From contig CAKSPU010000040.1 of the NCBI GenBank assembly GCA_934486875.1, positions 1-19,453 on the forward strand: DNA of 19,453 nt. The letters run 5' to 3'. Of the stretch, positions 692-18,344 are shown in pieces. This DNA is from an uncultured Oscillospiraceae bacterium (lineage in GTDB: Bacteria; Bacillota; Clostridia; Oscillospirales; Ruminococcaceae). A program made the position numbers and the translations under genes. Under the pieces are notes generated by a model, which saw nothing but the letters and a program-made list of their open reading frames with translations, was not told where the DNA came from and made no database searches. How positions within the stretch are numbered: position 1 is the first letter of the stretch; each line of letters starts with the position of its first letter.

Positions 692-2431
692 TTACTGATA
701 TTTCCATCGGTCGGAGCAAAGCTGCATATCTGCCATATGCCTGTAAATTCCATTAGCCTTTTTAAGCTCCTCGGGAGTGCCCTGCTCGGCTACCCGTCCG
801 TCCTTAAGGACAACTATTTTATCAACACCGTCAACCGTTCTCATTCTGTGCGCAATGATAAGGACCGTTTTGTTTCTGATAAGCTTTGAAAGTGACTCCT
901 GGATCACCGACTCGTTATCAACATCAAGCGATGCGGTTGCCTCGTCCATAAGGATTATGGGCGCATCTTTCAGAAAGGCTCTTGCTATGGAGATACGCTG
1001 TCTTTCACCGCCCGAAAGCTCCGAGCCGTTTTCACCGATCATACTGTTCCACTTTTCGGGCATTTTCTCAACAAATTCCTCGCAATGGGCAAGCCTTGCG
1101 GCTGCTATTACTTCTTCATCGGTGGCATTTTTTCTGCCTATTCGGATATTTTCCATAACCGTATTGTTAAAAAGCGTTACGTCCTGAAAAATAATGGAGT
1201 AGAGCGAAAGAAGCTTTTCGGGGTCTGTTTTTGACACGTTCATTCCGCCCACTGTGATAGTTCCCTTATCAATGTCCCAGAATCTTGCGGCAAGTCTTGA
1301 TACGGTAGTTTTTCCGCCGCCTGAGGGACCGATAAGAGCGGTTACCTCACCCTGTTTTGCGGTAAAGCTTACATCTGAGAGCACCTGCTTACCGTCTTTA
1401 TAGGAAAATGCAACGTGGTCGAATTTTATGTCATAGCCATTGTTGCTGAGAGTTTCACTGCCTGTCTGTTCTTCGTGGGAAAGTATCTCGTCCATACGCT
1501 TGCAGTTTACATTGATGCTTATTATCGCTGAAAGATTCTGAAGTGCTATTTGGAACGGGTCATACATTCTTGTTACAACCAGCAGGAACATAAAGAATGT
1601 GAGAACTGTTATCTCGCCCTTTATAAGAAGCGAGCTGCCCACAACCGCAACTGTTCCGATACCGAGCTTAAGTATCAGCTGCGCCGAGCATACAAAGGCT
1701 GCATTTGAAAATTCCGCAACTATCGCATGATTTTCAACGGCTTTTATCTTCTTTTCAAGTCCCTTGGAATAGGTCTCTGTCATATTGTAGGAACGGAGAT
1801 CACGGAGAGTTTCAAGCTCCTCCTGGATACCGTCAAGGCATTCAACACGATATTTCACAGTCTTTTCGTGTACCCTTGCCATAACCTTTCCCGAGCACAT
1901 AACGATGATAAAGGAAACGGGCATTACCCATACAGCTGCAAGCGCCATTCTCCGATCAAAGAAGAAAAGGCTCACCACCACAACAAATGTGGAAATTATA
2001 GAACCAACCAGCTCGGGTATCCAGTGGGAAGATGCGGTCTCTATCATCGAGCAGTCGGTCATTATTGTGTTTGTAAGGTCGGCAAGGTCTTTTTTGCCGA
2101 AGAATGACAGCGGTATTTTTCTGAGCTTTTCTGCCAGTGTTCTTCTTCTTACGCCGCTCTCAATGTAGGTCGAAAGGAATGTTGACCTGTACTGAAATAC
2201 GGCAGTTACCGCAATAAGTGCAAGGACAAAAATTATTGCTATGATAAATGTACCGAACTTTTCCTGCGGCAGCTCTCCTTCAAGCAGATATGATGAAAGC
2301 GTATAAAGAAGTCCTATGGGGAGCATAAGCACGAGATTTGCTGTTGTAACGGCGGCAAAGGCACGTATCATAGCCTTTGCTCCCGTATCGGAAAGAGCGT
2401 ATTTGTGCTTTAATTTTTCTGTGAGCTTCAT
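692..2431 (-). CDS. ABC transporter, fused permease/ATPase, second subunit of a heterodimer
   Basis: This 579-residue half-transporter has an N-terminal six-helix membrane domain (about residues 20-310) and a C-terminal ATPase. Walker A is GPSGGGKT at 368-375, the Q-loop glutamine near 416, signature LSGGERQ at 472-478, Walker B IILMDE at 492-497 with catalytic Glu497, a regular SLD D-loop, and switch histidine 528. All ATPase motifs are intact. Only 3 bp separate its ATG from the stop of the upstream ABC gene, and a GGGGTG-like site overlaps that gene's end, so translation is probably coupled. The pair most likely forms a heterodimeric ABCB-type transporter in the cytoplasmic membrane. Drug or lipid export is the usual role. 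Related pairs (YbtPQ, IrtAB) import metal chelators, so direction and substrate are open. Confidence 0.92.
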   Translation of the reverse strand: MKLTEKLKHKYALSDTGAKAMIRAFAAVTTANLVLMLPIGLLYTLSSYLLEGELPQEKFGTFIIAIIFVLALIAVTAVFQYRSTFLSTYIESGVRRRTLAEKLRKIPLSFFGKKDLADLTNTIMTDCSMIETASSHWIPELVGSIISTFVVVVSLFFFDRRMALAAVWVMPVSFIIVMCSGKVMARVHEKTVKYRVECLDGIQEELETLRDLRSYNMTETYSKGLEKKIKAVENHAIVAEFSNAAFVCSAQLILKLGIGTVAVVGSSLLIKGEITVLTFFMFLLVVTRMYDPFQIALQNLSAIISINVNCKRMDEILSHEEQTGSETLSNNGYDIKFDHVAFSYKDGKQVLSDVSFTAKQGEVTALIGPSGGGKTTVSRLAARFWDIDKGTITVGGMNVSKTDPEKLLSLYSIIFQDVTLFNNTVMENIRIGRKNATDEEVIAAARLAHCEEFVEKMPEKWNSMIGENGSELSGGERQRISIARAFLKDAPIILMDEATASLDVDNESVIQESLSKLIRNKTVLIIAHRMRTVDGVDKIVVLKDGRVAEQGTPEELKKANGIYRHMADMQLCSDRWKYQ

Positions 2432-2434
2432 TGT

Positions 2435-4219
2435 TTACACCCCTGCCTTTCCGACCTGCCATGTGACAGATCTGTTGTATTCGTTCCACATACGGCTGTA
2501 GATACCGTCCTTTTCAACGAGCTCGCTGTGCTTTCCGCTTTCTGCGACCTTTCCGTCGGCAAGAACGTAGATGCAGTCGGCATTGGTAACGGTAGATAAT
2601 CTGTGAGCGATCATTATAACTGTCTTGTCCTTGGCAAGCTTTTCAAAAGCCTGCTGAACAAGCCGTTCATTATCAGGGTCTGCAAACGCTGTGGCTTCAT
2701 CAAGGATAAGCACAGGGGCATTTTTCAGAAATGCTCTTGCTATGGAAAGACGCTGGCACTCGCCGCCCGAAACATAGATGCCCTTTGAACCTATCATCGT
2801 GTCAGCTCCGTCGGGGAATTTTTCAATGATATCCATACACCGGGCATCACGGAGAGCCTGCATAACCTCTTCATCGGAAGCGTCGGGTCTGCCCATACGG
2901 ATATTATCCTTTATGCTCATTTTAAGCAGCCTGCTGTCCTGAAAAACATAGGAAACATACTGCATAAGCTCAGATGAGGGAATATTGCGCACATCAGCGC
3001 CGCCTATCTTAACAGAGCCGCTCTTTACGTCCCAGAAACGTGCGATAAGTGAGGCGAGGGTGGTTTTTCCCCCTCCCGAGGGACCGACAAGGGCAATATG
3101 CTCCCCTGCCTTTACCGAAAGGGTTATGCCGTCAATGGCATTGTTATCGGAATTGCCGTAGGAGAAAACAACATTGTCCAGAGCGATCGAAGAATCCTCA
3201 GGCTTCCCGTTCTTAGCCGATTCGGGAAGAGGCTCTGTTTCCAGTATCTCATACATTCTGTTCAGTGCGTCATCAACTATCATCTGCGACTCGCCTGCAT
3301 ATGCTATCTTCATAAGCGTAACGGTGAGCACGGAGGTTATGAGCACATAGAAAAACAGATTGAGAACAAAATCAGTAGTTACTCCCTGAGCCGTGAACCT
3401 GAACGCTGCTATGATAAGTGCGGCAAAAATACCGTTTGCGGCAGTGGTGAAAGCCACCATAGGCAACAGCATATTTTTTGTATAGCCGAGTGTCCATTTC
3501 TCGTATTCGTCAATAGCTGCCTTAAAGCGCTTGAAGGTGAAAACTGTCTGTCCGAAGGTCTTTACAACGGGTATTCCACGGACATACTCAACAGCCTCCG
3601 CCGACATTGCTTCAAGTGCATTCTGATACTGCTTCATATCTTCTGCCATTTTGGGACCCATCATAAGAGTTCCCATCAGAGCAAATGCTATTGCCGCAGG
3701 AATAAGGCTGATAAGTCCCAGTCTCCGGTCAAACGCCAGCATCATTACAAGAAGTCCTATGGGCGTTGCAACGGAAACTGCCTTGTCGGGGAGATTATGG
3801 GCAAGAAATGTTTCTGTTGCCGCACTTGAATCAATGACTATCTTGCGTATTTTGCCTGTTCCCTCCGCTTCAACATATCCCAGCGGGAGCTTTGAAATAT
3901 GCTTCATCATACTGATACGCATATTTGCCTGAACTCTGAAGGCTGCCTTATGGGAACACATCAGAGCTGCAATGTAAATCACCATTCCAAGGAGGGCAAA
4001 GCCCACTGCCTCCCAACCGTATCGGCTGATATTCACCGCCTCGGAAAAGTTCGGGCGTACCTCAAGCACCTCCCTGATGATTCGCCAGATATCGTAAAAA
4101 GGTATCAGGGCGATCCAGGCACTGATCACAGCAAGCACAACCGAAGCATAGCTGAAATACTTATTGCTGCCCGCATAATGCATCAGCACCGAAAATGAAT
4201 TTCTCTTTTTTTGTTTCAC
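2435..4219 (-). CDS. ABC transporter, fused permease/ATPase, first subunit of a heterodimer
   Basis: This 594-residue half-transporter has six predicted membrane helices in the first ~310 residues and a C-terminal ATPase. Walker A is GPSGGGKT at 379-386, Q-loop Gln427, signature VSGGECQ at 483-489, Walker B VLILDE at 503-508 with Glu508, and switch histidine near 539. The D-loop reads ATAFADPDNE instead of the common SALD form. I associate that variant with the YbtPQ/IrtAB-like branch, from memory. Translation starts at GTG (4217-4219), supported by AGGAGG 7 nt upstream (4227-4232). It heads a two-gene operon with the 579-residue partner. A 16-bp inverted repeat at 4246-4261, just upstream, is shared with two neighbouring promoters and is probably the operator controlling this operon. 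Confidence 0.92.
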   Translation of the reverse strand: MKQKKRNSFSVLMHYAGSNKYFSYASVVLAVISAWIALIPFYDIWRIIREVLEVRPNFSEAVNISRYGWEAVGFALLGMVIYIAALMCSHKAAFRVQANMRISMMKHISKLPLGYVEAEGTGKIRKIVIDSSAATETFLAHNLPDKAVSVATPIGLLVMMLAFDRRLGLISLIPAAIAFALMGTLMMGPKMAEDMKQYQNALEAMSAEAVEYVRGIPVVKTFGQTVFTFKRFKAAIDEYEKWTLGYTKNMLLPMVAFTTAANGIFAALIIAAFRFTAQGVTTDFVLNLFFYVLITSVLTVTLMKIAYAGESQMIVDDALNRMYEILETEPLPESAKNGKPEDSSIALDNVVFSYGNSDNNAIDGITLSVKAGEHIALVGPSGGGKTTLASLIARFWDVKSGSVKIGGADVRNIPSSELMQYVSYVFQDSRLLKMSIKDNIRMGRPDASDEEVMQALRDARCMDIIEKFPDGADTMIGSKGIYVSGGECQRLSIARAFLKNAPVLILDEATAFADPDNERLVQQAFEKLAKDKTVIMIAHRLSTVTNADCIYVLADGKVAESGKHSELVEKDGIYSRMWNEYNRSVTWQVGKAGV

Positions 4220-4245: not shown

Positions 4246-4261
4246 GTTAGCATAAACTAAC
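4246..4261. promoter_or_regulatory. Candidate TetR-type operator, site 1 (ABC operon)
   Basis: GTTAGCATAAACTAAC is an inverted repeat with 5-bp arms, GTTAG and CTAAC. It lies 27 bp upstream of the GTG start of the ABC operon, after the terminator of the upstream tetR gene. Two further copies with the same length and orientation occur at 5936-5951 and 6162-6177. No strong sigma-A promoter is visible here. The best guess is a weak -10 TATAGG just downstream, which would put the site in the spacer. Confidence 0.65.
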
Positions 4262-4270
4262 CGGTTGATA

Positions 4271-4299
4271 TTTAAAAAGCAGTATCCACTGCTTTAAAA
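4271..4299 (-). terminator. Terminator after the first tetR gene
   Basis: AAAGCAGT (4276-4283) and ACTGCTTT (4288-4295) form a perfect 8-bp stem with a 4-nt loop. On the minus strand the stem is followed by TTTTTAAA. It lies just after the tetR stop and separates that gene from the ABC operon, implying that the transporter has its own promoter. Confidence 0.7.
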
Positions 4300-4307
4300 T
4301 AAACGTA

Positions 4308-4913
4308 TCATTGACCTGCTCCCAGTACCTTTGCCCAGCCTGCGAAGCTGTATTCCCGTATGCTTTTCATAAAGCTCCGGGCTTCCTCATAGGGAAGCTT
4401 GTGGGACACGATCTCGTAAATATACTGCCAGCCTGTCCGACAGACAACGTGGATAAAAAAATCACTCACGCTGTGCCCGGTATGCGCAAACTGCCCCGCA
4501 AAGCTTTTATAATATTTCTCCTCAATCTCAGCGAGCTTGTCGAAATAATGCTCATATTCCGTGCCTGCGGAATTGCAGAAAATAAGGAAAAAAGCATCGA
4601 AATTATCATAGATATATTTCAGTACAAGCTCAGTGCCCTCATCGCCCATATTCGTTGCAGCTGCTGCGCTGCCGCACTCCGCTGCCTCGCTTATGCTTTC
4701 AAGATATATCTGCATAAGTCCGTCAGCCGCAGGCTTTACAAGAGCGGAAAAAAGCCCTGATTTATCACCGAAGCGTGTATATATGGAATTGGTGCTAACG
4801 CCGCTGTCGGCAGATATCCTGCGAAGATTTGCGTTCCGAAATCCGTACTGCAAAAATTCCTTTTTGGCACTTTCGATAAGTGCTTCTGTAACTCCTGCCG
4901 TTTCCTGTCTCAT
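4308..4913 (-). CDS. TetR-family transcriptional regulator (TetR1)
   Basis: This is a 201-residue repressor-type protein. Its N-terminal helix-turn-helix spans about residues 28-55 (ANLRRISADSGVSTNSIYTR, then FGDKSGLF), the typical TetR DNA-binding domain with the Y-x-x-F-x-x-K ending. The C-terminal ligand and dimerisation domain is not recognisable. The start at 4913 was chosen because GGGAGG (4920-4925) precedes it by 6 nt. A further in-frame ATG at 4940 has no ribosome binding site and sits at the predicted transcript start. The gene has its own consensus promoter and a terminator, so it is a single-gene unit between the ABC operon and the methyltransferase. It is a plausible local regulator of the exporter, but its promoter lacks the 16-bp operator found at the three neighbouring promoters. 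Confidence 0.9.
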   Translation of the reverse strand: MRQETAGVTEALIESAKKEFLQYGFRNANLRRISADSGVSTNSIYTRFGDKSGLFSALVKPAADGLMQIYLESISEAAECGSAAAATNMGDEGTELVLKYIYDNFDAFFLIFCNSAGTEYEHYFDKLAEIEEKYYKSFAGQFAHTGHSVSDFFIHVVCRTGWQYIYEIVSHKLPYEEARSFMKSIREYSFAGWAKVLGAGQ

Positions 4914-4944
4914 ACCACACCTCCCTGCTTTTTGTAACATTGTT

Positions 4945-4973
4945 ATTATAACACAGTTATTTTATTCTGTCAA
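4945..4973 (-). promoter_or_regulatory. Consensus sigma-A promoter of tetR1
   Basis: On the minus strand TTGACA (4968-4973) and TATAAT (4945-4950) are separated by exactly 17 bp, a perfect match to the housekeeping consensus. Transcription should start near 4938. ACAG and CTGT half-sites (4954-4957 and 4968-4971, 10 bp apart) sit in and beside the spacer and could be an autoregulatory site. Confidence 0.88.
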
Positions 4974-4993
4974 GGGGGTAAGGTAATTTTTTT

Positions 4994-5029
4994 CAAAAAA
5001 AGTGCCGCACAAAATTTGTACGGCACTTT
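4994..5029 (-). terminator. Rho-independent terminator of the methyltransferase gene
   Basis: AAAGTGCCG (4999-5007) pairs perfectly with CGGCACTTT (5021-5029). The loop can itself pair through ACAAA/TTTGT. On the minus strand the stem ends in a run of seven T. It lies about 55 bp past the methyltransferase stop. Confidence 0.88.
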
Positions 5030-5039
5030 CTGATACATA

Positions 5040-5078
5040 ATACTAATCTTTGACCAACCTATAGACAAAGATTAGTAT
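5040..5078. repeat. Perfect 13-bp inverted repeat beside the methyltransferase stop
   Basis: ATACTAATCTTTG (5040-5052) and CAAAGATTAGTAT (5066-5078) are exact reverse complements around a 13-nt loop. The repeat begins 6 bp after the methyltransferase stop codon and has no T tract of its own. It may protect the 3' end of the transcript or bind a protein; the function is unknown. Confidence 0.8.
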
Positions 5079-5083
5079 AAACA

Positions 5084-5869
5084 TCACTTTTCCATAACTA
5101 TAATCTTATTTGAGATATTGCTTACGGCCTTTATCTTTCCGAGGACCTTATAAACAGGTGCAAATTCCGCCATACCCTCGGTAAGGCTGTGCTCCTCCTT
5201 AAATCGGAAATCGGGGACGAGCTTTGAAAGCTCCTCACCGTTTTTGATCCCCCAGGTGAATTTTGCTTTGCTGCCCTCGATCGATTTTTCTTTTATGCGC
5301 TTTGCGACCATAGGATTCATAATTTCCACAAGAACGGCTGCGTGTTCAAAGCGCCTGCTTATTATCTCAAATATCCGCTTGACATCTTTTTCCGAAAGAT
5401 ACATAGTAAGTCCTTCTATAATTATAAGCGCAGACCTGCTCTCAGGGCTTATCTCTCCGCCCCAGTCGTCCATAGCGGACATTCCTATCTGCGATATTGT
5501 TTCTGTGGGGGGAAGTATCTTTCTGCGCACATCAATAGTTTCGGGGAGATCGAGATTATACCAGTGGGAATAGCCTTTCATACGGTAGCAGCGTGTGTCC
5601 AGACCGCAGGCGATATTTACCACAGCCAAGCCGTGATTTTTTGAAAGATACCTTTCAGCAAGCCTGTCAAGCACTATCGTCCTTGCAATAACGCCGTCGT
5701 GCATAGCTGCGTCCTTGTCTGCCAGGGAGAAATTATAGTCGAGCTTTTCGACTATCTCAACAGCCTTACTGTCTTTTATGGCACCTCTTGTTTTTGTTTC
5801 CTTTGCACGGGCATATATGGTCTGGAGCATCGTTTCGGGAACTCCCGAAAGTGTGGGCTTTTCGCTCAT
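5084..5869 (-). CDS. LCMT/TcmP-type S-adenosylmethionine-dependent O-methyltransferase
   Basis: This 261-residue soluble protein belongs to the leucine carboxyl methyltransferase/TcmP family, which transfers methyl groups from S-adenosylmethionine, usually to carboxylates or hydroxyls of small molecules. The SAM-binding loop is VVNIACGLDTRCYR (about 83-96), followed by the acidic YNLDLPE (104-110), a second conserved patch MSAMDDW (130-136) and IEGLTMYLSEKDV (151-163). An AAGGAAG site precedes the ATG. A consensus promoter lies upstream, with the shared 16-bp inverted repeat just past its -10, so repression by a local TetR protein is likely. It is transcribed divergently from the tetR2-hydrolase operon. 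The substrate is unknown; bacterial family members act on polyketides or are uncharacterised. Confidence 0.85.
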   Translation of the reverse strand: MSEKPTLSGVPETMLQTIYARAKETKTRGAIKDSKAVEIVEKLDYNFSLADKDAAMHDGVIARTIVLDRLAERYLSKNHGLAVVNIACGLDTRCYRMKGYSHWYNLDLPETIDVRRKILPPTETISQIGMSAMDDWGGEISPESRSALIIIEGLTMYLSEKDVKRIFEIISRRFEHAAVLVEIMNPMVAKRIKEKSIEGSKAKFTWGIKNGEELSKLVPDFRFKEEHSLTEGMAEFAPVYKVLGKIKAVSNISNKIIVMEK

Positions 5870-5935
5870 TTTTATCTTCCTTTCACAGCGATCATTTTTA
5901 TGGCAGTCCTTGCAGACAAGCCGATTTTATATCAA

Positions 5936-5951
5936 GTTAGCATTAGCTACC
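5936..5951. promoter_or_regulatory. Candidate TetR-type operator, site 2 (methyltransferase)
   Basis: GTTAGCATTAGCTACC is an imperfect inverted repeat (GTTAGC against GGTAGC, 5 of 6). It lies 5 bp downstream of the -10 of the methyltransferase promoter, covering the expected transcription start. Bound protein there would block initiation. Confidence 0.68.
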
Positions 5952-5956
5952 TGATT

Positions 5957-5985
5957 ATTTTATCACAATCACACTGATTTGTCAA
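5957..5985 (-). promoter_or_regulatory. Sigma-A promoter of the methyltransferase gene
   Basis: On the minus strand TTGACA (5980-5985) and TAAAAT (5957-5962) are 17 bp apart, a near-perfect match to consensus. The long leader to the start codon at 5869 includes operator site 2. Confidence 0.82.
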
Positions 5986-6150
5986 TAGAACAATCGGCAA
6001 TTTGCTCCGCTTTTGGGATAACTTAATATAAGTTTAGTGTGCCATATAATGCTCCGCCTGCCGTTTATATTATGTCGGAAATTTCTGTACAAATCCAATG
6101 AACACAGCTGTGTCAAAATAAGCATATGTAACAAAATGGCAAAAAGCCTA

Positions 6151-6179
6151 TTGACATTTCAGTTAGCATATAGTAACAT
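6151..6179 (+). promoter_or_regulatory. Sigma-A promoter of the tetR2-hydrolase operon
   Basis: TTGACA (6151-6156) is followed after 17 bp by TAACAT (6174-6179). The -35 is perfect and the -10 matches at 4 of 6 positions. Operator site 3 occupies most of the spacer, the classical layout of a repressed promoter. Confidence 0.72.
6162..6177. promoter_or_regulatory. Candidate TetR-type operator, site 3 (tetR2 operon)
   Basis: GTTAGCATATAGTAAC has matching outer arms GTTA/TAAC and the same length as sites 1 and 2. The left half GTTAGCAT is identical in all three. Its position between -35 and -10 of the tetR2 promoter points to autorepression. Confidence 0.7.
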
Positions 6180-6229
6180 AGATCTGTGACCAAAATTCAT
6201 AAAATCAGTCACAGAGATGAGGGACACTT

Positions 6230-6826
6230 ATGCCGAACGCATTCACAGACGAAGAAGCAAAACGAATAAGACAGGAACTTATCCTTGCGGGAATACGTCT
6301 CAGCAAGGAGCTCGGAATGCAGAAAATGTCCGTTGAAAAGCTCACCGCCGCCGTAGGGATAGCAAAAGGCAGCTTCTATCTTTTTTTCGGCTCAAAGGAG
6401 GATTTTATTCTCGAAACAGCAGCGTATGCAAGTGAAAAGACACAGAAAATGCTGCTTGCAAAGCTGAACGGACGGGCGCAGATGTCAGCCCACGAGTTTA
6501 TGGAATTTTATGACGAATTTCTCCATTCCGACCTTGACCTGATGAACGGACTTACCGTCAGTGATTTTTACTGGCTGAAAGATCACATAAAAAAGCAGGT
6601 GCTTTTTGATCCCGATATGCAGATAAAAACAGCACAGTTCTGGCTGTCGCTCATTAATGATATCCGTGAGGGCGTTGACACGGGAACATTCGTAAACCTC
6701 ATTAAATCCATTTACGCCATTCGTGAACACAGCGACACAATGGTGAAGGCTTCCATCGAAAACAGCATTCAGCTGATACTTCGCACTATTGAAATCTACA
6801 TAAGCGGAAAAAGGGATATATTATGA
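6230..6826 (+). CDS. TetR-family transcriptional regulator (TetR2)
   Basis: This 198-residue regulator has an N-terminal TetR helix-turn-helix at about residues 33-59, MSVEKLTAAVGIAKGSFYLF then FGSKEDF, with the typical K-G-S-F-Y-x-F-F-x-S-K-E pattern. The remaining ~135 residues are helical and unassigned, as usual for the ligand domain. A TGAGGG site precedes the ATG by 6 nt. It is the first gene of a four-gene operon and overlaps the next gene by 4 bp (ATGA). The shared inverted repeat lies inside its promoter, so it probably represses itself. It is the best candidate to bind the same motif before the methyltransferase and the ABC operon. The inducer is unknown. Confidence 0.92.
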   Translation: MPNAFTDEEAKRIRQELILAGIRLSKELGMQKMSVEKLTAAVGIAKGSFYLFFGSKEDFILETAAYASEKTQKMLLAKLNGRAQMSAHEFMEFYDEFLHSDLDLMNGLTVSDFYWLKDHIKKQVLFDPDMQIKTAQFWLSLINDIREGVDTGTFVNLIKSIYAIREHSDTMVKASIENSIQLILRTIEIYISGKRDIL

Positions 6827-7671
6827 GAAACTTTGCAGATGAATACAAGGAATTTCTGAAAACCCACAGCTACAAGCCTGTGACCGCATCGGGCAGGGAA
6901 TTTCAGGTCATCGACAGCGGCAGCGGAAGCCAGACCATTGTTTTTCTCAACGGCATCGACACACAGCAGGAATGGATAAATTATGTGTCCGCACTTGAAA
7001 AAAATTACCGTGTCGTAATGATGAAATATCCCGTGGAAATTTACAAAAACAAGGAAATGATCGCTGCGCTCCACGAGCTTTTCGGAAAGCTTGGCATCTC
7101 TTCCCCTATTTTATGCGGTATCAGTGACGGCGGCGTTCTCGGACAGCTTTATGCCAAAAATTACAAGGTGGGCGGACTTATTATGATGACCACCCTGACC
7201 GTTGATTCCGCCTATGTTGAGGGAATGAAAAAGGAACAGTTCCTGCTGCCGCTTATGAAGCTCTACATCAAGACTGTGAAATTTGAAAAGCTGAGACCTG
7301 CGCTTATCAATGCGGTAAAAAAGCATTTCAGAAACGAGACCGAAGAGGAAAAAGCCTATGCGGTATCATTTTTTGAATGCATAGGTCAGGACGAGAGCTA
7401 CAGATATTCATATCTCCGTGCAGTGCTTGCCACAGGCGATATTTACAAGCTGGAAAAATTCAAAAAAAGCGATTTTTCCTATCTTGACGGAAAGGTTCTC
7501 GTGCTTATCCCCGAAAACGATATGTTCGACAAAGCCGACTCGCAGAAGCTTGTGGATATATTCACCGATCCCGTTGTAAAGGAGACCTACGGCGGTCATC
7601 TCGGAATGCTTATGCGTGCGGATCTGTACATAAAAGAGATAGAAAAATTCTTAAGCGAAAATTTTCGGTAA
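6823..7671 (+). CDS. Alpha/beta hydrolase (first of two in the operon)
   Basis: This is a 282-residue cytoplasmic alpha/beta-hydrolase-fold protein without a signal peptide or membrane helix. The nucleophile elbow is CGISDGG with Ser101 in a GxSxG motif. An acid in LIPENDMFD (Asp233 or Asp236) and His259 in GGHLGML complete a credible triad. The usual HG oxyanion strand is replaced by FLNGID (41-46). The start overlaps the tetR2 stop, so expression is coupled to the regulator. Such enzymes hydrolyse esters, lactones or amides, and the substrate cannot be inferred. The placement suggests acting on the same molecule that TetR2 senses. Confidence 0.88.
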   Translation: MRNFADEYKEFLKTHSYKPVTASGREFQVIDSGSGSQTIVFLNGIDTQQEWINYVSALEKNYRVVMMKYPVEIYKNKEMIAALHELFGKLGISSPILCGISDGGVLGQLYAKNYKVGGLIMMTTLTVDSAYVEGMKKEQFLLPLMKLYIKTVKFEKLRPALINAVKKHFRNETEEEKAYAVSFFECIGQDESYRYSYLRAVLATGDIYKLEKFKKSDFSYLDGKVLVLIPENDMFDKADSQKLVDIFTDPVVKETYGGHLGMLMRADLYIKEIEKFLSENFR

Positions 7672-7677
7672 AGGTCG

Positions 7678-8868
7678 ATGAATATGGAAAAATATGATAT
7701 CACAAAACCCATAAGCATTCCCGTTGGAATGCACAAGCTGAACAAAGACCCGAGCATCAGCTTCCAGCTCAACCGCCTTGTCAATATGGACGGCTGCGAC
7801 CTTGCAGTTGCGAGTGAAATTGGCAATACCATTAAAACCGCCGCTGATTTTTACACCGTTCTGAAAAAGCGTGGGGACTCTGAGCTTGAAAACGGACACA
7901 TAAAAAATGCTGCGGCGCTTTACCGTATGTCCGAATTTTTCACCGACCGGGAAGACCCGAACGGTCTTGCCGCCTGGAAAAAAGCAAGGGAGCTTTTCTT
8001 TGAATATTACGCTGATTTTTTTGACGGCGAGCACCCTCTCATCGAGCTTGTAAACGTTCCCTATGAAAGCTTCACGATGCCCACCCTGAAATTCAACGCC
8101 GACGACCCAAAGGGCGATATCGTTATGCACGGCGGCTTTGACTCCAGCTATGAGGAATTTTTCGCCGAGTGCGAATATCTTCGTGAGCAGGGCTATAATG
8201 TGTATCTTTTCGAGGGACCGGGACAGGGTGAATGCATTCGTCTCCACGGCGCTCCACTTATCATTGAATGGGAAAAGCCCGTTATGGCTGTGACAAAATA
8301 TTTTGACCTCCATAATGTCATTCTTGTGGGTCAGTCGCTGGGCGGATTTTTCGCTCCGAGAGCCTCCGCATTTGACAACAGAGTAACAAAATGTGTGAGT
8401 ATTGCACAGTTCGGCGCACTGAAAATGAATTTTTCAGACAATGCCTTTGCAAACGGTCTTATCTGGGGATCGCTGAATGTCCTGCTTTTCCTTTTCGGCT
8501 GGCTCATAAACATCATCTATGCTGCAAAAAAAGAAAAAGGTATGGCATTTTTCCGCACATATTTTCACAGGTTCGGAACAAATAATGTTTATCGGCTGTT
8601 AAAATATCTTCACGAAATAGATCTTCGCCCGATTGCCGACAAGCTCACAAAGGATTATCTTGTCATCGGCGGCAGCAATGACACAATGGCTTGCCGTGCG
8701 GGCATCGGCAGACAGCTTCTTATCCTCAAAAATGCCCGTTCTGTTTCATCAAGAGAGATAACCGCTTACGAACAAGGCGCAGACCATTGCTGCTGCGGAA
8801 ACCAACTTGCCGCAATGGACACGATACTTATGTGGGCAGAGCTTATGAATAAAAGAGATTCGCAATAA
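7678..8868 (+). CDS. Alpha/beta hydrolase, FrsA/dihydropseudooxynicotine-hydrolase-like
   Basis: This is a 396-residue hydrolase with a long helical N-terminal extension (about 1-140) ahead of the catalytic fold, the layout seen in FrsA-like and 2,6-dihydropseudooxynicotine-hydrolase-like C-C or ester hydrolases. Visible motifs are the oxyanion HGG (151-153), LFEGPGQGE (177-185), the nucleophile elbow GQSLGG with Ser220, GGSND with Asp335, and GADHCCCGN with His370. No signal peptide is present; residues 264-282 are hydrophobic (LNVLLFLFGWLINIIYAA) and may contact membrane or form the substrate cap. The AAAGG ribosome site at 7670-7674 fits a start at 7684 (two codons in) better than the ATG at 7678. 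It follows the first hydrolase by 6 bp but is not a close duplicate of it. Confidence 0.87.
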   Translation: MNMEKYDITKPISIPVGMHKLNKDPSISFQLNRLVNMDGCDLAVASEIGNTIKTAADFYTVLKKRGDSELENGHIKNAAALYRMSEFFTDREDPNGLAAWKKARELFFEYYADFFDGEHPLIELVNVPYESFTMPTLKFNADDPKGDIVMHGGFDSSYEEFFAECEYLREQGYNVYLFEGPGQGECIRLHGAPLIIEWEKPVMAVTKYFDLHNVILVGQSLGGFFAPRASAFDNRVTKCVSIAQFGALKMNFSDNAFANGLIWGSLNVLLFLFGWLINIIYAAKKEKGMAFFRTYFHRFGTNNVYRLLKYLHEIDLRPIADKLTKDYLVIGGSNDTMACRAGIGRQLLILKNARSVSSREITAYEQGADHCCCGNQLAAMDTILMWAELMNKRDSQ

Positions 8869-8883
8869 AACGGAGTAATGACT

Positions 8884-9498
8884 ATGCTGAAAATTTCTAT
8901 AATAGCAGCGATCATCGGACATATCCTGTGCGCAGTATCCGATTGCCTGCTCGGGTATTCAAAAAAGGGCAAGCTTGATCTGAAAAATATAAACGATGCC
9001 GAAAAGATGTCTGCAATGTTTGCGGATATGCCCCTTTCCTACCCGCTTTCGTCAACGCTTCTCGGCGTTGCGGCGATAACGCTGTTCAGCTTCGGTTATT
9101 TCGGTATCAGCAGCTATATGGGTGAATATTCAAAGACAGCTTCGGTAATTATGTTTATTTCGGCTGTTCTGTATGCCGTTCCCATAACGGCGCATCACGT
9201 TCTGTTTGCTGTTATAGAATGGCTTTACATAAGGCTTGGCAGGACGAATGAAGCTAGGGAAGCCGTGCTGGAGCTTCAGAAAAAGACCATAGCGCCTATG
9301 TTTGCAGGCTATCTCGGACTGCTTGTTTTCACAGTGACGCTGTTTGTGATGACAGTATCGGGAAGCACTGCACTTCCTCGGTGGGCGTGGGTTTTCAACA
9401 CCGCCGCTGCGATGATACTGCTTCTCCCCACAAAACTGCCAGCAAAAGGAAATATTGCTGGAGCAGCAATGTTTCTGGGTCTGCTTTTTGTAATATGA
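8884..9498 (+). CDS. Six-helix integral membrane protein of unknown function
   Basis: This 204-residue protein is almost entirely hydrophobic, with about six membrane segments near residues 2-20, 55-75, 82-110, 137-158, 163-180 and 185-204, and no obvious catalytic or cofactor motif. It is compatible with small multi-pass families such as DUF6796, a tentative match from memory. ATG 8884 is preferred over the in-frame ATG at 8878 because GGAG (8872-8875) is 8 nt from it but only 2 nt from the earlier one. It is the last gene of the tetR2 operon, starting about 15 bp after the second hydrolase. Transport or membrane modification linked to the hydrolases is inference. Confidence 0.78.
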   Translation: MLKISIIAAIIGHILCAVSDCLLGYSKKGKLDLKNINDAEKMSAMFADMPLSYPLSSTLLGVAAITLFSFGYFGISSYMGEYSKTASVIMFISAVLYAVPITAHHVLFAVIEWLYIRLGRTNEAREAVLELQKKTIAPMFAGYLGLLVFTVTLFVMTVSGSTALPRWAWVFNTAAAMILLLPTKLPAKGNIAGAAMFLGLLFVI

Positions 9499-9896: not shown

Positions 9897-12164
9897 TCAT
9901 ATTTCCTTTTTTCGCCGTGCCTTTGCATCGTAAAGCTTTCCGTCGGCTTTGTCTATTCCCTCTTTCAGGTCATAGCTGTTAAACACCTTACAGCTTATAA
10001 CGCCCATTGACATATTGATGTAATACGGCTTGCCTGCGGCTGCATTGAGACGGTCTATGCTCTCCTGTCGGCGGCGGAGGATATCATCGTGAGTGAGGAT
10101 ATCGGTGACAGGCAGCACTGCGGCAAATTCGTCGCCGCCCATTCTGCCGATGACAGCAGCATCACCGAATATCTCTTTAAGACAGTTTGCAAGGGAGCGT
10201 ATGGAAAAATCTCCCTCGGTATGTCCATAGCGGTCATTGACCATTTTGAGGTTGTCCATATCCGCATAGCAGATAGTGTATTCCGCACCCCTGCCGTGTC
10301 TTTTCACAAGCTCAGCAACTGCGGAATAGAAGCCTCGGCGGTTATATATCTGAGTAAGCTCGTCGATTCGGGACATATCCTCCAAAGCAAGATTTTTTGC
10401 GTGGAGCTCATCAAATGCCTGCTCACGGCTGCGGAGAAGATGCACCATTTTTACAACTGAACTGAGCTGATAGGTTATGAGCTCCAGCTCGTCAAAGAAG
10501 TCCACCGAATGGGGCTCGCAGAGAACTATGCCGTACTGGAACTCCTTGCAGAAAAGGTCGGCGGCTATAAGTGTATGACGCTTGTCGCCGTTATAAAGCT
10601 CACTTCTGAAAATATCACGGGCGGACACCCTGCGCTTTTCAGAGGGAATCGAAAATATCTCGCTGCCGAATGCATATCCCGAAAAATTAAAATCGGTGCT
10701 GCCCGCAGGAAAATGCTGTCCCTCGTGATACTCCACAGGTTCGGGGAATATGTAGGCATACGATGAATCCGCTCCGATAAGGTGAAGAGGACGGAGCATT
10801 CGTGAATAGCTCTCGCTGAGGTTCTCCCCTATCATAAGTGTGTCTCGGAGAACAATGTTGTCGTAATGTACGGCAAGCTTATGCTTTTCCTCGAGTACGT
10901 GGAAATCCGAAGCGATATCGAGATTTATGCGCTTATAGAAAAAGTTATACAGCCTGCGGATATAAGGCTCGTTTTCCGGGAAACATTTTCTCATAAGGTA
11001 GCGATAGCCGCTGTCGATAATGTCGTGGATAACACTGACGTGGTTCACGATCTCAAAATCCTTATTAAAGAAAAGGTCGATCATATCGGCAGTCTCGCTG
11101 TAATCCTCGGGAGATGCACGCCTGCTTCCGAAACGGGCATACATATTTTCAAGATAATTTTTTACGAAATCAAAGAGCACGGCTTTTTCTACCGTAAGTG
11201 CTCCGCTTTCATAAAGATATGCACAGACCTTGCCCGCTATCTGAGTCTCGCTTCCGCTGAAAACCGAATCGGGTGAATTATACAGCCCCGACTGACCATA
11301 GCTTGACTGGCGGGGGATAAATTCGGTAGCAAGGTAATTTTCATCATCTGGAGTACCACTGAGGAAATTTACTGCCTTTTCCACCGCTCTGACACCGAGC
11401 TTGTATGCGTCCGCCCTTACCGATGCCAATGGGGGCTCAAGCTTTGCGGCAAACGGAAGATCATCAAAGCCTGTTACGGCGATATCCCTGCCGATGTGGA
11501 TACCTCTGGCATTGAGAACGGAGTAAAGAGCCTGCGCCATTATGTCATTTACGCAGATAACTGCGTCAAGCTCGGGGTTATTGTCCACAAGCATACTTGC
11601 TTCTTTGTAGATATTATCGGAAATATCGCTTGGTACAACGAGCTTCGGGTCATATGCAAGACCATTTTGCTCGATAGCTGTGCGGTATGCCTCAAAACGC
11701 TCAACACATTCGCTGTTGTTCATATCGCCGCAGAGCATTCCTATGCACTTCTTGCCCTGTTCCTTAACAAGATGCTCCACCGCCTGCATTATGCCTGTGC
11801 GGTTATCGAACATAAGATGATCGTAGCCGTCGATTTTAGCGGCAACGCTGAGGGTAGGGACTTTTCCGAAGATCTCCAGATGACGCTTTTTCCCCTCGTT
11901 GTCCAGGGGATAGGCTATTGAGCCCACGGCTGAGATCATATAATCAAACTCAGCTGCGGCGGCTATATCGAAAAGGGCGTTGTACTGATATTCATAGCGA
12001 GCCTGATTGGCATAGCCTTCATATTCAACGCCTATATATTTTCCGGGAAATATGCACAGGTCAGCATCAAGCCTTTCCGCTGCGCTCATTGCGCCTTGGG
12101 AAAGCTGATAGCTGAAAGGGTCTTTGATTGCTGCGACTGCCATTCCGATCTTAAATCTTTTCAT
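9897..12164 (-). CDS. Soluble LacI-type ligand-binding domain fused to a GGDEF diguanylate cyclase
   Basis: This 755-residue protein probably makes cyclic di-GMP from two GTP in response to a ligand. Residues 1-287 form a LacI/periplasmic-binding-type domain, with the typical VNDIMAQALYSVLNARGI (205-222), IAVTGFDDLPFA (228-239), PPLASVR and a closing FIPRQS (282-287). The LacI helix-turn-helix is absent. There is no signal peptide or membrane helix, so sensing should be cytoplasmic. Residues about 300-585 are an unassigned, possibly GAF-like linker. The cyclase begins at DELTQIYNRRGF and has an intact GGDEF at 676-680. No RxxD inhibitory site precedes it, so product feedback may be absent. 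AGGTGA lies upstream of the ATG. The ligand is probably a sugar, by family analogy. Confidence 0.88.
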   Translation of the reverse strand: MKRFKIGMAVAAIKDPFSYQLSQGAMSAAERLDADLCIFPGKYIGVEYEGYANQARYEYQYNALFDIAAAAEFDYMISAVGSIAYPLDNEGKKRHLEIFGKVPTLSVAAKIDGYDHLMFDNRTGIMQAVEHLVKEQGKKCIGMLCGDMNNSECVERFEAYRTAIEQNGLAYDPKLVVPSDISDNIYKEASMLVDNNPELDAVICVNDIMAQALYSVLNARGIHIGRDIAVTGFDDLPFAAKLEPPLASVRADAYKLGVRAVEKAVNFLSGTPDDENYLATEFIPRQSSYGQSGLYNSPDSVFSGSETQIAGKVCAYLYESGALTVEKAVLFDFVKNYLENMYARFGSRRASPEDYSETADMIDLFFNKDFEIVNHVSVIHDIIDSGYRYLMRKCFPENEPYIRRLYNFFYKRINLDIASDFHVLEEKHKLAVHYDNIVLRDTLMIGENLSESYSRMLRPLHLIGADSSYAYIFPEPVEYHEGQHFPAGSTDFNFSGYAFGSEIFSIPSEKRRVSARDIFRSELYNGDKRHTLIAADLFCKEFQYGIVLCEPHSVDFFDELELITYQLSSVVKMVHLLRSREQAFDELHAKNLALEDMSRIDELTQIYNRRGFYSAVAELVKRHGRGAEYTICYADMDNLKMVNDRYGHTEGDFSIRSLANCLKEIFGDAAVIGRMGGDEFAAVLPVTDILTHDDILRRRQESIDRLNAAAGKPYYINMSMGVISCKVFNSYDLKEGIDKADGKLYDAKARRKKEI

Positions 12165-14848: not shown

Positions 14849-15397
14849 TCAAAATTCGTGTTTCTCATAGCAGGGATCGTCCGTCCACAGAACGACCTTC
14901 CCTGCCGCAAGAGTTTTTTTCATATCTATGAGCCGCTGATTGGAGCTTCCTCTGAACCTGAGAGAAATATTTTTGAGATCTTGCACAAACTCACCGTCCA
15001 CAAGCACATCTATATATGACAGAAGCTCATCTGTACATTCGCACCGTGCACGGCTTTCGGAAAGGAGCTCTGTTTCAAGGACATATCCCGAGTAGCACCA
15101 GATATTTTTCTGCGGGTAAAGCTTTTTCACCTTTTTCACAAGATTGAGCAGCTCCCGCTGATTTACGGGCTCCATAGGCTCGCCCCCGAGGAGGGTCAGC
15201 CCGTCGATATAATCGGGTTCAAGGGCTTTCAGTATTTCCCGCTCGGTAGTGATGTCATATTCCCTGCCGAATGTAAAATCCCAGGTCTGGGGATTGAAGC
15301 AGCCCTTGCAGTGGTGGGTGCAGCCCGAGACAAAGAGGGACACTCTCACTCCCGGACCGTCGGCTATGTCGCATTTTTTTATTTCTCCGAAGTACAT
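14849..15397 (-). CDS. nrdG: Anaerobic ribonucleotide reductase activating protein
   Basis: This 182-residue radical SAM enzyme generates the glycyl radical on NrdD under anaerobic conditions, using a [4Fe-4S] cluster and S-adenosylmethionine. The cluster motif CX3CX2C is seen in SGCTHHCKGCFNPQTW (Cys26, Cys30, Cys33), and LTLLGGEPM follows as the SAM-binding GGE motif. Length and order match NrdG. It starts 18 bp after the nrdD stop with an AAGGA site, so the two form an operon, ended by a terminator just downstream. Confidence 0.95.
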   Translation of the reverse strand: MYFGEIKKCDIADGPGVRVSLFVSGCTHHCKGCFNPQTWDFTFGREYDITTEREILKALEPDYIDGLTLLGGEPMEPVNQRELLNLVKKVKKLYPQKNIWCYSGYVLETELLSESRARCECTDELLSYIDVLVDGEFVQDLKNISLRFRGSSNQRLIDMKKTLAAGKVVLWTDDPCYEKHEF

Positions 15398-15415
15398 TTG
15401 AAGTCATTCCTTTTA

Positions 15416-17572
15416 TTACAGGTGCATTACTCTTTCCTTTATCTCCTGTGTTCTGCCCTGATTCCAGAACTGGGTGCCGATATATCCGCAGGTGCGGCGG
15501 GCAACGTTCATCTTGTCCTGATCCCTGTTTCCGCAGGAGGGGCATTCCCATACGAGCTTGCCGTTATCCTCAACTATCTTTATCTCGCCGTCATATCCGC
15601 AGCACTGGCAGTAGTCGGATTTTGTGTTGAGCTCTGCATACATTATATTGTCGTAGATAAACTGGAGCACACGGATAACCGCTTCAAGATTATCCTGCAT
15701 ATTGGGCACTTCCACATAGCTTATTGCGCCGCCTGTGGAAAGAGCCTGAAACTGAGCCTCGAATTTCAGCTTTGTAAAAGCGTCGATCTCCTCGGTAACA
15801 TTTACGTGATAGCTGTTTGTGATATAGCCCTTGTCGGTTACGCCCTTGATTATGCCGAAACGTCTCTGGAGACATTTTGCGAATTTGTATGTTGTGCTCT
15901 CGATCGGTGAGCCGTAGATGCTGAATGCGATGTTAGTTTCTTTCTTCCACTTCTCGCAGGCTGCGTTCATATATCTCATAACATCAAGGGCAAAGCCTGT
16001 TGCGGAGGGGTCTGTGTGAGGCTTGCCCGTCATATACCTTACGCACTCGCAGAGTCCCGCATAGCCCAGAGAAATGGAGGAATAGCCGCCGTAAAGGAGC
16101 TTGTCGATAGGCTCGCCCTTTTTGAGCCTTGCAATTGCGCCGTTCTGCCAGAGGATAGGCGCTGCGTCGGAAAGTGTGCCTTTGAGCCTGTTGTGACGGC
16201 ACATAAGGGCACGGTAGCAAAGGTCAAGCCTTTCATCGAATATCTTCCAGAACTTGTCCATATCCTTGCCCGAGGAAAGTGCCACATCAACAAGGTTAAT
16301 GGTGACAACGCCCTGATTGAAGCGTCCGTAGAACTTATAATTGCCGTTCTCGTCCTTCCAGGGGTTAAGACAGCTGCGGCAGCCCATTACGGGGAAGCAG
16401 TTGCCCTCTTTGAGCTCCTTCATCTTCTTTTCGGAGATGTAGTCGGGAACCATTCTTTTTGCCGTACACTTCGCTGCAAGCTGGGTGAGGTAGAAATACT
16501 CTGAGCCCTCCTTGATATTATCCTCTTCAAGAACATAGATGAGCTTGGGGAATGCAGGTGTTATCCAAACGCCCGACTCATTCTTTACGCCCTGATATCT
16601 CTGGCGGAGCATCTCCTCGATTATCATTGCAAGGTCTTTCTTCTCACGCTCGTTCCTTGCTTCACCAAGGTACATAAATACGGTGAGGAAAGGAGCCTGA
16701 CCGTTTGTGGTCATAAGGGTAATGACCTGATACTGTATGGTCTGAACGCCGCTTGCTATTTCCTTGCGCAGACGCTTTTCAACCACGCTGTCGATGACCT
16801 TTTCATCAAGGCTGCCGCCCAGCTCCTTTGCTTCCTCGATGACTGCCTTGCGGATCTTTTCACGGGATATCTGAACAAATGGTGCAAGATGAGTGAGGCT
16901 GATGCTCTGTCCGCCGTACTGATTTGATGCCACCTGTGCGATTATCTGTGTGGCGATATTGCAGGCGGTTGGGAAGCCGTGGGGCTTTTCGATAAGTGTT
17001 TCGCTGATAACTGTGCCGTTCTGGAGCATATCATCGAGATTTATAAGGTCGCAGTTATGCATATGCTGGGCAAAATAATCTGAATCGTGGAAATGGATAA
17101 GTCCGTCGTGGTCGGCATCGACGATATCCTTGGGCAGGAGCATACGCTTGGTAAGGTCCTTGCTCACCTCGCCTGCCATATAATCACGCTGAACGCTGTT
17201 TACGATAGGGTCTTTGTTTGAATTTTCCTGAAGGACTTCTTCGTTGTTGCACTCGATGAGGGAAAGGATACGGTCATCGGTGGTGTTGGACTTTCTTACA
17301 AGCGAACGGGTATAGCGGTACTTTACATAGCCCTTGGCTATCTCAAAAGCGCCGTGAGCCATTATCTGATTTTCGACCATATCCTGTATCTCTTCAACGG
17401 AAACAGCTCTCTTCATTTTTTCGCACTTGTAGCAGATATATTCCGATGCCTCTCTGATCTGCTCCTCGGTGAGCTCTCTGCGGCGGCCTGCGTTGTTAGC
17501 CTTGGTAATGGCTGTTTCTATTTTGGCTATGTCGAAATCGACTTCCGACCCGTTGCGCTTGATAACCTTCAT
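15416..17572 (-). CDS. nrdD: Anaerobic (class III) ribonucleoside-triphosphate reductase
   Basis: NrdD reduces ribonucleoside triphosphates to deoxy forms without oxygen. The 718-residue protein starts with an ATP-cone allosteric domain (about 1-90, MKVIKRNGSEVDFD). It continues with the catalytic barrel, including FHDSDYFAQHMHNCDLIN and NGQAPFLTVFMYLG. The C-terminus has four zinc-type cysteines (CQCC and CPSC) and the glycyl-radical motif RTCGYIG, with the radical Gly near 696. ATG 17572 was preferred over ATG 17596 because AGGAGG (17584-17589) lies 11 nt upstream of it and inside the longer frame; the gap is slightly long. Its presence marks an anaerobe. No NrdR box is obvious upstream. 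Confidence 0.96.
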   Translation of the reverse strand: MKVIKRNGSEVDFDIAKIETAITKANNAGRRRELTEEQIREASEYICYKCEKMKRAVSVEEIQDMVENQIMAHGAFEIAKGYVKYRYTRSLVRKSNTTDDRILSLIECNNEEVLQENSNKDPIVNSVQRDYMAGEVSKDLTKRMLLPKDIVDADHDGLIHFHDSDYFAQHMHNCDLINLDDMLQNGTVISETLIEKPHGFPTACNIATQIIAQVASNQYGGQSISLTHLAPFVQISREKIRKAVIEEAKELGGSLDEKVIDSVVEKRLRKEIASGVQTIQYQVITLMTTNGQAPFLTVFMYLGEARNEREKKDLAMIIEEMLRQRYQGVKNESGVWITPAFPKLIYVLEEDNIKEGSEYFYLTQLAAKCTAKRMVPDYISEKKMKELKEGNCFPVMGCRSCLNPWKDENGNYKFYGRFNQGVVTINLVDVALSSGKDMDKFWKIFDERLDLCYRALMCRHNRLKGTLSDAAPILWQNGAIARLKKGEPIDKLLYGGYSSISLGYAGLCECVRYMTGKPHTDPSATGFALDVMRYMNAACEKWKKETNIAFSIYGSPIESTTYKFAKCLQRRFGIIKGVTDKGYITNSYHVNVTEEIDAFTKLKFEAQFQALSTGGAISYVEVPNMQDNLEAVIRVLQFIYDNIMYAELNTKSDYCQCCGYDGEIKIVEDNGKLVWECPSCGNRDQDKMNVARRTCGYIGTQFWNQGRTQEIKERVMHL

Positions 17573-17613
17573 CTTTTTAAAGTCCTCCTGTATCATAATG
17601 CTGTGTATTTCTA

Positions 17614-17619
17614 ATTATA
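17614..17619 (-). promoter_or_regulatory. -10 element of the nrdDG promoter, weak -35
   Basis: TATAAT reads on the minus strand 42 bp before the nrdD ATG. At the correct spacing (17637-17642) only CAGAAA is found, a poor -35. That would suit an activator-dependent promoter. Confidence 0.5.
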
Positions 17620-17642
17620 TTCTATATGAGATAAAATTTCTG

Positions 17643-17657
17643 TTGCAATTACCACAA
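17643..17657. promoter_or_regulatory. Possible Crp/Fnr-type binding site between nrdD and the regulator gene
   Basis: TTGCAATTACCACAA has TTG and CAA ends in the style of Crp/Fnr sites, but the symmetry is only 3 bp per arm. Its centre is about 43 bp upstream of the predicted nrdD transcription start, where class II activators bind, and it overlaps the -35 of the divergent regulator gene. Confidence 0.3.
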
Positions 17658-17671
17658 TTTTATGATATAAT
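17643..17671 (+). promoter_or_regulatory. Sigma-A promoter of the Crp/Fnr-family gene
   Basis: TTGCAA (17643-17648) and TATAAT (17666-17671) are exactly 17 bp apart. The start of transcription would be near 17678, so coding frames opening upstream of it are not real starts. Confidence 0.75.
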
Positions 17672-17711
17672 ATACTATATACACGACATACGGAAGAAAG
17701 GAGCACTATAT

Positions 17712-18344
17712 ATGGGGGCTTTGCTTACACGTCAGGAGCTTATCTATCTTAAAAACCGCTTCAATGCGAGGTCGGCAAAATTTTCAAAAAACGAAACGGT
17801 ACTGCATATAGGCGAGAACGAAAATCAGCTCTGTTTCCTGCTTGACGGCACGGTGTATCTCTGCACCGAGAATGAACGCTGCGAACGGAGTATCCTGAGA
17901 TTTTTCCGAAGCGGTGAATATTTTACTTCCGCAATGCTTATACGTTCCGAGTATGCGGTGAGCTATATGACGGCAAAGTACCCCTCCGAGGTCGTTTTTT
18001 TCGGACGTGAGGAGCTTTTCCGCTTCTGCGCCGCCAATCCTGACTGGCAGGCAAAATTTATGGAGATCCTCTCCGAACAGGGCAGCCGAAATGCCTGTTT
18101 TACGGATTTTGTGCTGCATCAGCGCAGCATAAGGGAAAAGCTGCTCCTTTTTTTCAGGCAGGAAGCTGATATCCGGAACTCGGACAGAATAAGGCTGCCT
18201 CTCCCCTACACCGATCTTGCGGAATTTCTCGCCTGTGACCGTTCAGCGATGATGAAGGAGCTGTCCAAAATGAAAAGCGAGGGGATAATTTCGGGGAAGA
18301 ACAGGGAGATCTTTATGGATATGTCTGCTCACACTGCCCGATAA
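17712..18344 (+). CDS. Crp/Fnr-family transcriptional regulator
   Basis: This 210-residue regulator has an N-terminal cyclic-nucleotide-binding-type beta-roll (about 15-130, with LHIGENENQLCFLLDGTVYL) and a C-terminal Crp-type helix-turn-helix (about 165-205, LPYTDLAEFLACDRSAMMKE then LSKMKSEGIISG). Six cysteines occur, but not as the clustered N-terminal set of oxygen-sensing Fnr, and the cAMP-pocket R-S pair is not evident, so the effector is unknown. AAAGGAG (17697-17703) sits 8 nt before ATG 17712, which decides the start. It is transcribed divergently from nrdDG and may control it. Such genes in Clostridia are often annotated as generic redox or nitrosative-stress regulators. Confidence 0.88.
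   Translation: MGALLTRQELIYLKNRFNARSAKFSKNETVLHIGENENQLCFLLDGTVYLCTENERCERSILRFFRSGEYFTSAMLIRSEYAVSYMTAKYPSEVVFFGREELFRFCAANPDWQAKFMEILSEQGSRNACFTDFVLHQRSIREKLLLFFRQEADIRNSDRIRLPLPYTDLAEFLACDRSAMMKELSKMKSEGIISGKNREIFMDMSAHTAR

Follow-up and report, generated by a model that had tools for sequence, protein, structure and literature searches.

A 16-bp inverted repeat at three adjacent promoters of an Oscillospiraceae ABC transporter locus, a probable operator of a DtxR-family repressor

The element treated here is a 16-bp inverted repeat that occurs at three adjacent promoters in a 19 453-nucleotide stretch of DNA from an uncultured Oscillospiraceae bacterium (contig CAKSPU010000040.1 of assembly GCA_934486875.1, hereafter the window), and its closest described precedent is the operator of EqbA from ICESe2 of Streptococcus equi. 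EqbA is DtxR-like, has no SH3 domain and carries Cys104; in electrophoretic mobility shift assays its binding with Fe2+, Zn2+ or Mn2+ required a palindrome with the core GTTAGATGTATCTAAC, and deletion of EqbA raised the eqbE transcript 13-fold (PMC3672683). A preliminary description of the window had known of no regulator with such an operator. The arms and 6-bp spacer of the EqbA/eqbB operator core are identical to those of the window box, GTTAG-N6-CTAAC, and the EqbA locus too has YbtPQ-like ATP-binding cassette (ABC) genes, eqbK and eqbL (PMC3672683). The EqbA palindrome, however, extends over 36 bp and was described at a single non-ribosomal peptide synthetase siderophore operon, whereas here a 16-bp core recurs at genes that include feo, enolase, ABC and methyltransferase genes. 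EqbA also combines an iron-type Cys with Asn at the position of DtxR Met10, as do many box-linked regulators described below, a likeness taken from the published description of EqbA rather than from direct sequence comparison.

A second point of comparison is IdeR, a single dimer of which can occupy a 14-bp half site, TTAGGNNNNCCTAA, with the same geometry as TTAG-N6-CTAA in the box (PMC8464063). Like IdeR boxes, these boxes overlap a -10 element or start point (PMC8464063, PMC10317159). In contrast to IdeR sites, hardly any (3%) of the 31 sites used below to train a matrix have the inner G of TTAGG, and the outer G/C is fixed. The full 19-bp IdeR/DtxR box with four CCTAA-type repeats, TTAGGTTAGSCTAACCTAA, was considered and rejected, as the window sites and the 31-site matrix contain two arms only. 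According to a recent review, iron control in low-GC Gram-positives usually falls to Fur, and the DtxR family typically serves manganese there; the Cys of the C-x-x-E-H motif is an iron-type ligand, in place of which MntR has Glu (PMC10317159). The available part of the Treponema denticola TroR paper contained no matching operator.

Based on the comparative evidence below, we put at about 0.87 the probability that the boxes are operators of a short, SH3-less, EqbA-type DtxR repressor, metal-loaded and most likely iron-responsive, acting on the ABC operon, the methyltransferase gene and the tetR2 operon of the window.

The box in the window and at homologous loci

The box was defined as GTTAG-N6-CTAAC, with the 10 arm positions scored. 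Three boxes were found, with the following positions.

4246 to 4261, no strand assigned: box 1, GTTAGCATAAACTAAC, 10/10, 26 bp 5' of the ABC1 GTG at 4219
5936 to 5951, no strand assigned: box 2, GTTAGCATTAGCTACC, 9/10, beginning 5 nt past the methyltransferase -10 (minus strand)
6162 to 6177, no strand assigned: box 3, GTTAGCATATAGTAAC, 9/10, between the tetR2 -35 and -10 and overlapping the -10

The three 16-mers are present on the plus strand where the preliminary description had placed them (4246, 5936 and 6162), and its assignment of sites to genes agrees with the promoter positions, although it named the genes in a different order from the sites. Its statement that the tetR1 promoter lacks the motif also stands, no site of at least 8/10 being found there. 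Elsewhere in the window the scan returned nothing of at least 9/10 and a single 8/10 position (15563). Three or more positions of 9/10 or better occurred in 2 of 200 dinucleotide-preserving shuffles of the window (mean 0.3); the trio is thus unusual, though not decisive by itself, and the comparative evidence decides. A matrix trained on 31 exact boxes from feo, enolase, DtxR and DUF loci, which included no ABC1, methyltransferase or TetR2 promoters, ranked boxes 1, 2 and 3 first, second and third in the window (23.6, 17.9 and 16.9), with the next position at 4.8.

Searches with ABC1 yielded 59 loci, of which 55 were usable after removal of three ATPase fragments (L057-L059) from the ABC1 analyses and of one locus (L044), whose ABC1 match stops short of the start, from the 55-locus tallies. 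A box of at least 9/10 preceded ABC1 or its apparent operon in 39/55 loci (33 exact, 6 at 9/10), against at most 3/55 exact for any of 29 scrambled-arm controls. It was present in 39 of 47 loci outside the Bacteroidota and in none of the eight Bacteroidota loci. A TetR1-like gene adjoins ABC1 in 27/55 loci; boxes of at least 9/10 were found along the ABC1 operon in 24/27 of these TetR-adjacent loci and in 15/28 of the others, or 15/20 of the non-adjacent loci when Bacteroidota are left aside.

Methyltransferase homologues had a box of at least 9/10 upstream in 7/12 loci (5 exact), six of them within about 140 bp of the match and one about 440 bp away; these seven homologues are 33-81% identical to the window protein, and the five of 25-31% identity had no box. 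The two best TetR2 homologues, L218 (30% identity over 193 amino acids; also seen as L126) and L034, had exact boxes 68 and 84 bp upstream. The TetR2 protein search gave matches in 90/197 genomes, largely to the N-terminal DNA-binding domain, and hence no clean orthologue set; among the TetR2-like family loci, any box of at least 9/10 in the fetched stretch was found in 4/30. For DUF6796, whose gene belongs to the tetR2 operon in the window, 4 of 28 hits were dropped (two below the cut-off, two fragments), and 6/24 of the remaining loci had a box within about 120 bp, 3 of them exact; in genome G001 (L202) it lies 32 bp ahead of the start. In genome G052 (L183/L194) a TetR2-like gene, an exact box and a methyltransferase copy with in-frame stops follow one another in that order.

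Association with iron genes and DtxR-family regulators

In relatives, the box precedes genes of iron acquisition. Among 30 FeoB loci of the 18 ABC1-bearing genomes it was exact upstream in 13 and of at least 9/10 in 21, the best of 29 scrambled-arm controls giving 1/30 exact. Varying the spacer from 0 to 15 gave 19 hits for a spacer of 6, one for a spacer of 10 and none for the others. In a further 29 FeoB loci from family genomes not selected for ABC1, 12 boxes were exact and 17 of at least 9/10 (controls at most 1 and at most 4); loci with a recognisable feoA had a box in 10/12 cases and those without in 7/17.

All boxes of G001, G002, G003 and G013, and 3 of the 11 in G009, were annotated, with Pfam searches on 20 of 50 neighbouring open reading frames. 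In the first four genomes the boxes precede genes for FeoA/FeoB, DUF3793, DUF2325, DUF6796, malic enzyme, a haem-binding surface protein (Shp/NEAT), enolase, the methyltransferase, ABC1 and a TetR regulator homologous to TetR2. Five boxes fell inside predicted open reading frames (L195:1392, L205:2524, L219:1922, L197:6981 and L208:4217); L197:6981 is upstream of ABC1 and L208:4217 upstream of feoA, both in reading frames judged spurious. Enolase, an unexpected glycolytic target, is box-preceded in 4/4 annotated genomes (L199, L206, L217 and L220), one assignment having been tested with Pfam and the others made from the start of the sequence. Genes for DUF3793 and DUF2325 stand beside boxes and feo operons at L196, L201, L212 and L221, and are probably unknown iron-response genes.

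Across 10 genomes 102 boxes were counted against 24 reversed controls, and across 197 family genomes 852 against 289. Boxes outnumbered controls in 137 of the 197 genomes, were fewer in 33 and equal in 27. PF02742 is present in 173/197 genomes. Box to control counts were 28:30 in genomes without it and 824:259 in those with it, or 486:175 with one copy, 159:52 with two and 179:32 with three or more; its copy number correlated with the number of boxes (Spearman 0.47) and hardly with that of controls (0.11). Since the excess of boxes is confined to genomes bearing PF02742, it follows DtxR-family proteins.

PF01325 was found in 18/18 ABC1-bearing genomes, each of which encodes a C-x-x-E-H protein (25/30 loci). 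Among DtxR-family loci, 9/30 had a box within 200 bp upstream (7 exact); some of these genes are divergent from feo, so that the box may serve either gene. The box-linked regulators are about 120-160 amino acids long, leaving no room for an SH3 domain. We assign the regulator to the DtxR family with high confidence on this comparative basis, and the organism of the window would be expected to encode a cognate DtxR.

Candidate regulators and the metal sensed

Several points weigh against this assignment or limit it. Boxes 2 and 3 each have one arm mismatch. Because exact boxes went into the matrix, its core carries over the motif tested, and independence extends to the choice of genes alone. 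The evidence from feo genes, DtxR-family genes and genome counts is drawn from the genomes of relatives. The 197 genomes are kin, so their statistics are non-independent, with ancestry, genome size and completeness uncorrected, and 33 of them have fewer boxes than controls. One scrambled control, GATTG, reached 67 against 102 boxes over the 10 genomes and 4 against 33 in the three closest, and is uneven and a poor control. No box lies near L163, L166 or L146, the probable C-x-x-E-H DtxR genes in the three closest genomes. A box within about 160 bp of ABC1 goes with an adjacent TetR gene (23/27 loci, against 6/28 of the others), an association due in part to the eight Bacteroidota loci among the others and to boxes at a more distant operon start. 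Two further points concern the metal: in a comparison of whole sequences with the PDB, the box-linked regulator L143 was nearer to MntR (E 6e-14) than to IdeR (6e-11), and the position of DtxR Met10 is occupied by N, D or M in the regulators of relatives.

The nearness to MntR and the varying Met10 position leave room for manganese or another metal. A DtxR-family manganese sensor of the MntR/TroR type, or a dual Fe/Mn regulator, is accordingly the alternative to an iron sensor that survives best, and EqbA itself also responded to Mn2+ and Zn2+ (PMC3672683). We nevertheless regard it as unlikely: the targets include feoAB and a haem-binding Shp/NEAT protein, and the Cys of the C-x-x-E-H motif is the iron-type ligand (PMC10317159). 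Iron is the likely metal.

The preliminary description had proposed a local TetR regulon in which TetR2, or failing that TetR1, reads the three sites. The part of this proposal that holds is that one operator-like box at three adjacent promoters joins the genes into one regulon, and the check it had suggested, conservation in relatives, bears this out upstream of ABC1, methyltransferase and TetR2 homologues. The regulon is probably not local, since in relatives the box also precedes feoAB and other iron genes, and the genome-wide excess of boxes tracks DtxR-family regulators. TetR2 binding at all three boxes, with control of the methyltransferase and the ABC operon, would agree with the box in the tetR2 promoter, a frequent spot for autoregulators, and with the exact boxes ahead of L218 and L034. 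We consider it very improbable because the box is not restricted to tetR2 and its neighbours but in relatives precedes feo, DtxR and enolase genes; G002 has 10 boxes and no TetR2 match at E <= 0.001; few TetR2-like loci contain a box at all; and the DtxR family, which the excess follows, has a published precedent for the palindrome (PMC3672683).

TetR1 as reader of the boxes and regulator of the ABC operon is slightly less probable still. Its gene often adjoins ABC1 and boxes near ABC1 go with that adjacency, as described above, but boxes also stand at ABC1 operons without an adjacent TetR gene and at feo genes. The tetR1 promoter, which lacks the box, contains instead two copies of a different palindrome.

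4934 to 4946, minus strand: candidate TetR1 operator, copy 1, ATAACAATGTTAC, ATAAC-N3-GTTAY
4948 to 4960, minus strand: candidate TetR1 operator, copy 2, ATAACTGTGTTAT, ATAAC-N3-GTTAY, overlapping the tetR1 -10

At least one ATAAC-N3-GTTAY palindrome was seen in 14/15 tetR1 homologue promoters and two, 13-14 bp apart, in 12/15, the sample being 15 of the 27 TetR-adjacent loci and the palindrome having been spotted by eye with no shuffled control. The tandem ATAAC-N3-GTTAT is therefore a candidate TetR1 operator distinct from the box, which speaks against TetR1 reading the latter. TetR1 beside the ABC operon, with a conserved palindrome on its own promoter, resembles local TetR repressor-efflux pairs, except that this palindrome is not the box.

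Control by Fur would accord with its usual role in iron regulation among low-GC Gram-positives (PMC10317159) and with the presence of Fur-family proteins in 16/18 genomes. It is hardly credible because the other two genomes, G002 and G013, have 10 and 12 boxes and no FUR-family match. Nor is the box a Fur box. Chance resemblance of the three sequences, despite as many sites in the few shuffles noted above, is practically dismissed by their promoter positions and their conservation upstream of homologues.

The locus and its probable role

The other features of the locus are as follows.

692 to 2431, minus strand: ABC2, partner half-transporter; best half-transporter PDB match YbtQ
2435 to 4219, minus strand: ABC1, half-transporter; best half-transporter PDB matches YbtPQ entry 6p6i chain A and IrtA
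4276 to 4295, minus strand: hairpin with 8-bp arms and a 4-nt loop, between tetR1 and box 1
4308 to 4940, minus strand: TetR1, TetR-family regulator upstream of ABC1 (PF00440)
5084 to 5869, minus strand: methyltransferase of the LCM family (PF04072)
5957 to 5985, minus strand: methyltransferase promoter TTGACA-17-TAAAAT (-35 at 5985-5980, -10 at 5962-5957)
6151 to 6179, plus strand: tetR2 promoter TTGACA-17-TAACAT (-35 at 6151-6156, -10 at 6174-6179)
6230 to 6826, plus strand: TetR2, first gene of an apparent operon (PF00440)
6823 to 7671, plus strand: protein with no Pfam match, weakly alpha/beta-hydrolase-like (NCBIfam pcaD, far below cut-off)
7678 to 8868, plus strand: alpha/beta hydrolase
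8878 to 9498, plus strand: DUF6796 protein, homologues of which elsewhere sometimes have their own box

The best half-transporter matches of ABC1 and ABC2 in the PDB had E values of 2e-92 and 2e-82, P-glycoprotein-type full transporters scoring above them in the same listing, and at the level of sequence the two proteins are related to the siderophore-iron importers YbtPQ and IrtAB. Chain A of 6p6i is presumably YbtP, the PDB listing naming YbtQ only, in 8vsi. With these exporter-fold importers ABC1 and ABC2 share sequence likeness, paired genes and an iron-type operator upstream; their substrate and direction, in contrast, are predictions from sequence, and no siderophore synthase was seen in the window. 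The locus, which would be annotated as a TetR-ABC drug pump, is probably an iron-acquisition locus.

A scan of the minus strand ahead of box 1 found no good -35/-10 pair for ABC1. Hairpins like that at 4276-4295, which may be a terminator or an attenuator, can be seen ahead of the box in L001, L002 and L009. TetR1 and TetR2 both have a TetR_N domain and little in common beyond it (22% identity over 49 amino acids). The tetR2 leader contains a perfect 8-bp inverted repeat, TCTGTGAC/GTCACAGA (6183-6190 and 6208-6215), possibly a TetR2 operator or an RNA hairpin. Further along the window are a large protein that combines a LacI-type periplasmic-binding domain with a GGDEF domain (9897-12164), apparent anaerobic ribonucleotide reductase genes judged by eye (14849-17596) and, adjoining these, a Crp/Fnr-type regulator (cNMP_binding, HTH_Crp_2; 17469-18344).

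When iron is plentiful, a metal-loaded DtxR dimer on GTTAG-N6-CTAAC would block RNA polymerase where transcription of the methyltransferase gene starts, over the tetR2 -10 and in the ABC1 leader ahead of ABC1-ABC2. Iron scarcity would release the repressor, and feoAB would then be expressed together with the genes of the YbtPQ/IrtAB-like transporter, the methyltransferase gene and the operon of tetR2, the hydrolase-like genes and DUF6796. TetR1 may add a second control of the ligand type, acting on its own promoter via the tandem ATAAC-N3-GTTAT.

No description of the wider regulon was found in the open-access literature, subscription journals being largely outside that search. From these data, an EqbA-type DtxR seems to act on the ferrous-iron genes of many gut Clostridia. 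More tentatively, and at somewhat less than even odds, a short SH3-less DtxR rather than Fur may be the main iron regulator in many gut Clostridia and some Erysipelotrichia, spirochaetes and Synergistes, acting via single-dimer half-site operators; its regulon would include enolase and an uncharacterised metallophore or haem pathway (YbtPQ-like transporter, LCM methyltransferase and hydrolases) gated by iron through DtxR and by a ligand through TetR1. A simple box would then allow iron-responsive genes to be predicted in genomes for which little genetics exists, and would give a functional handle on DUF3793, DUF2325, DUF6796 and the LCM methyltransferase.

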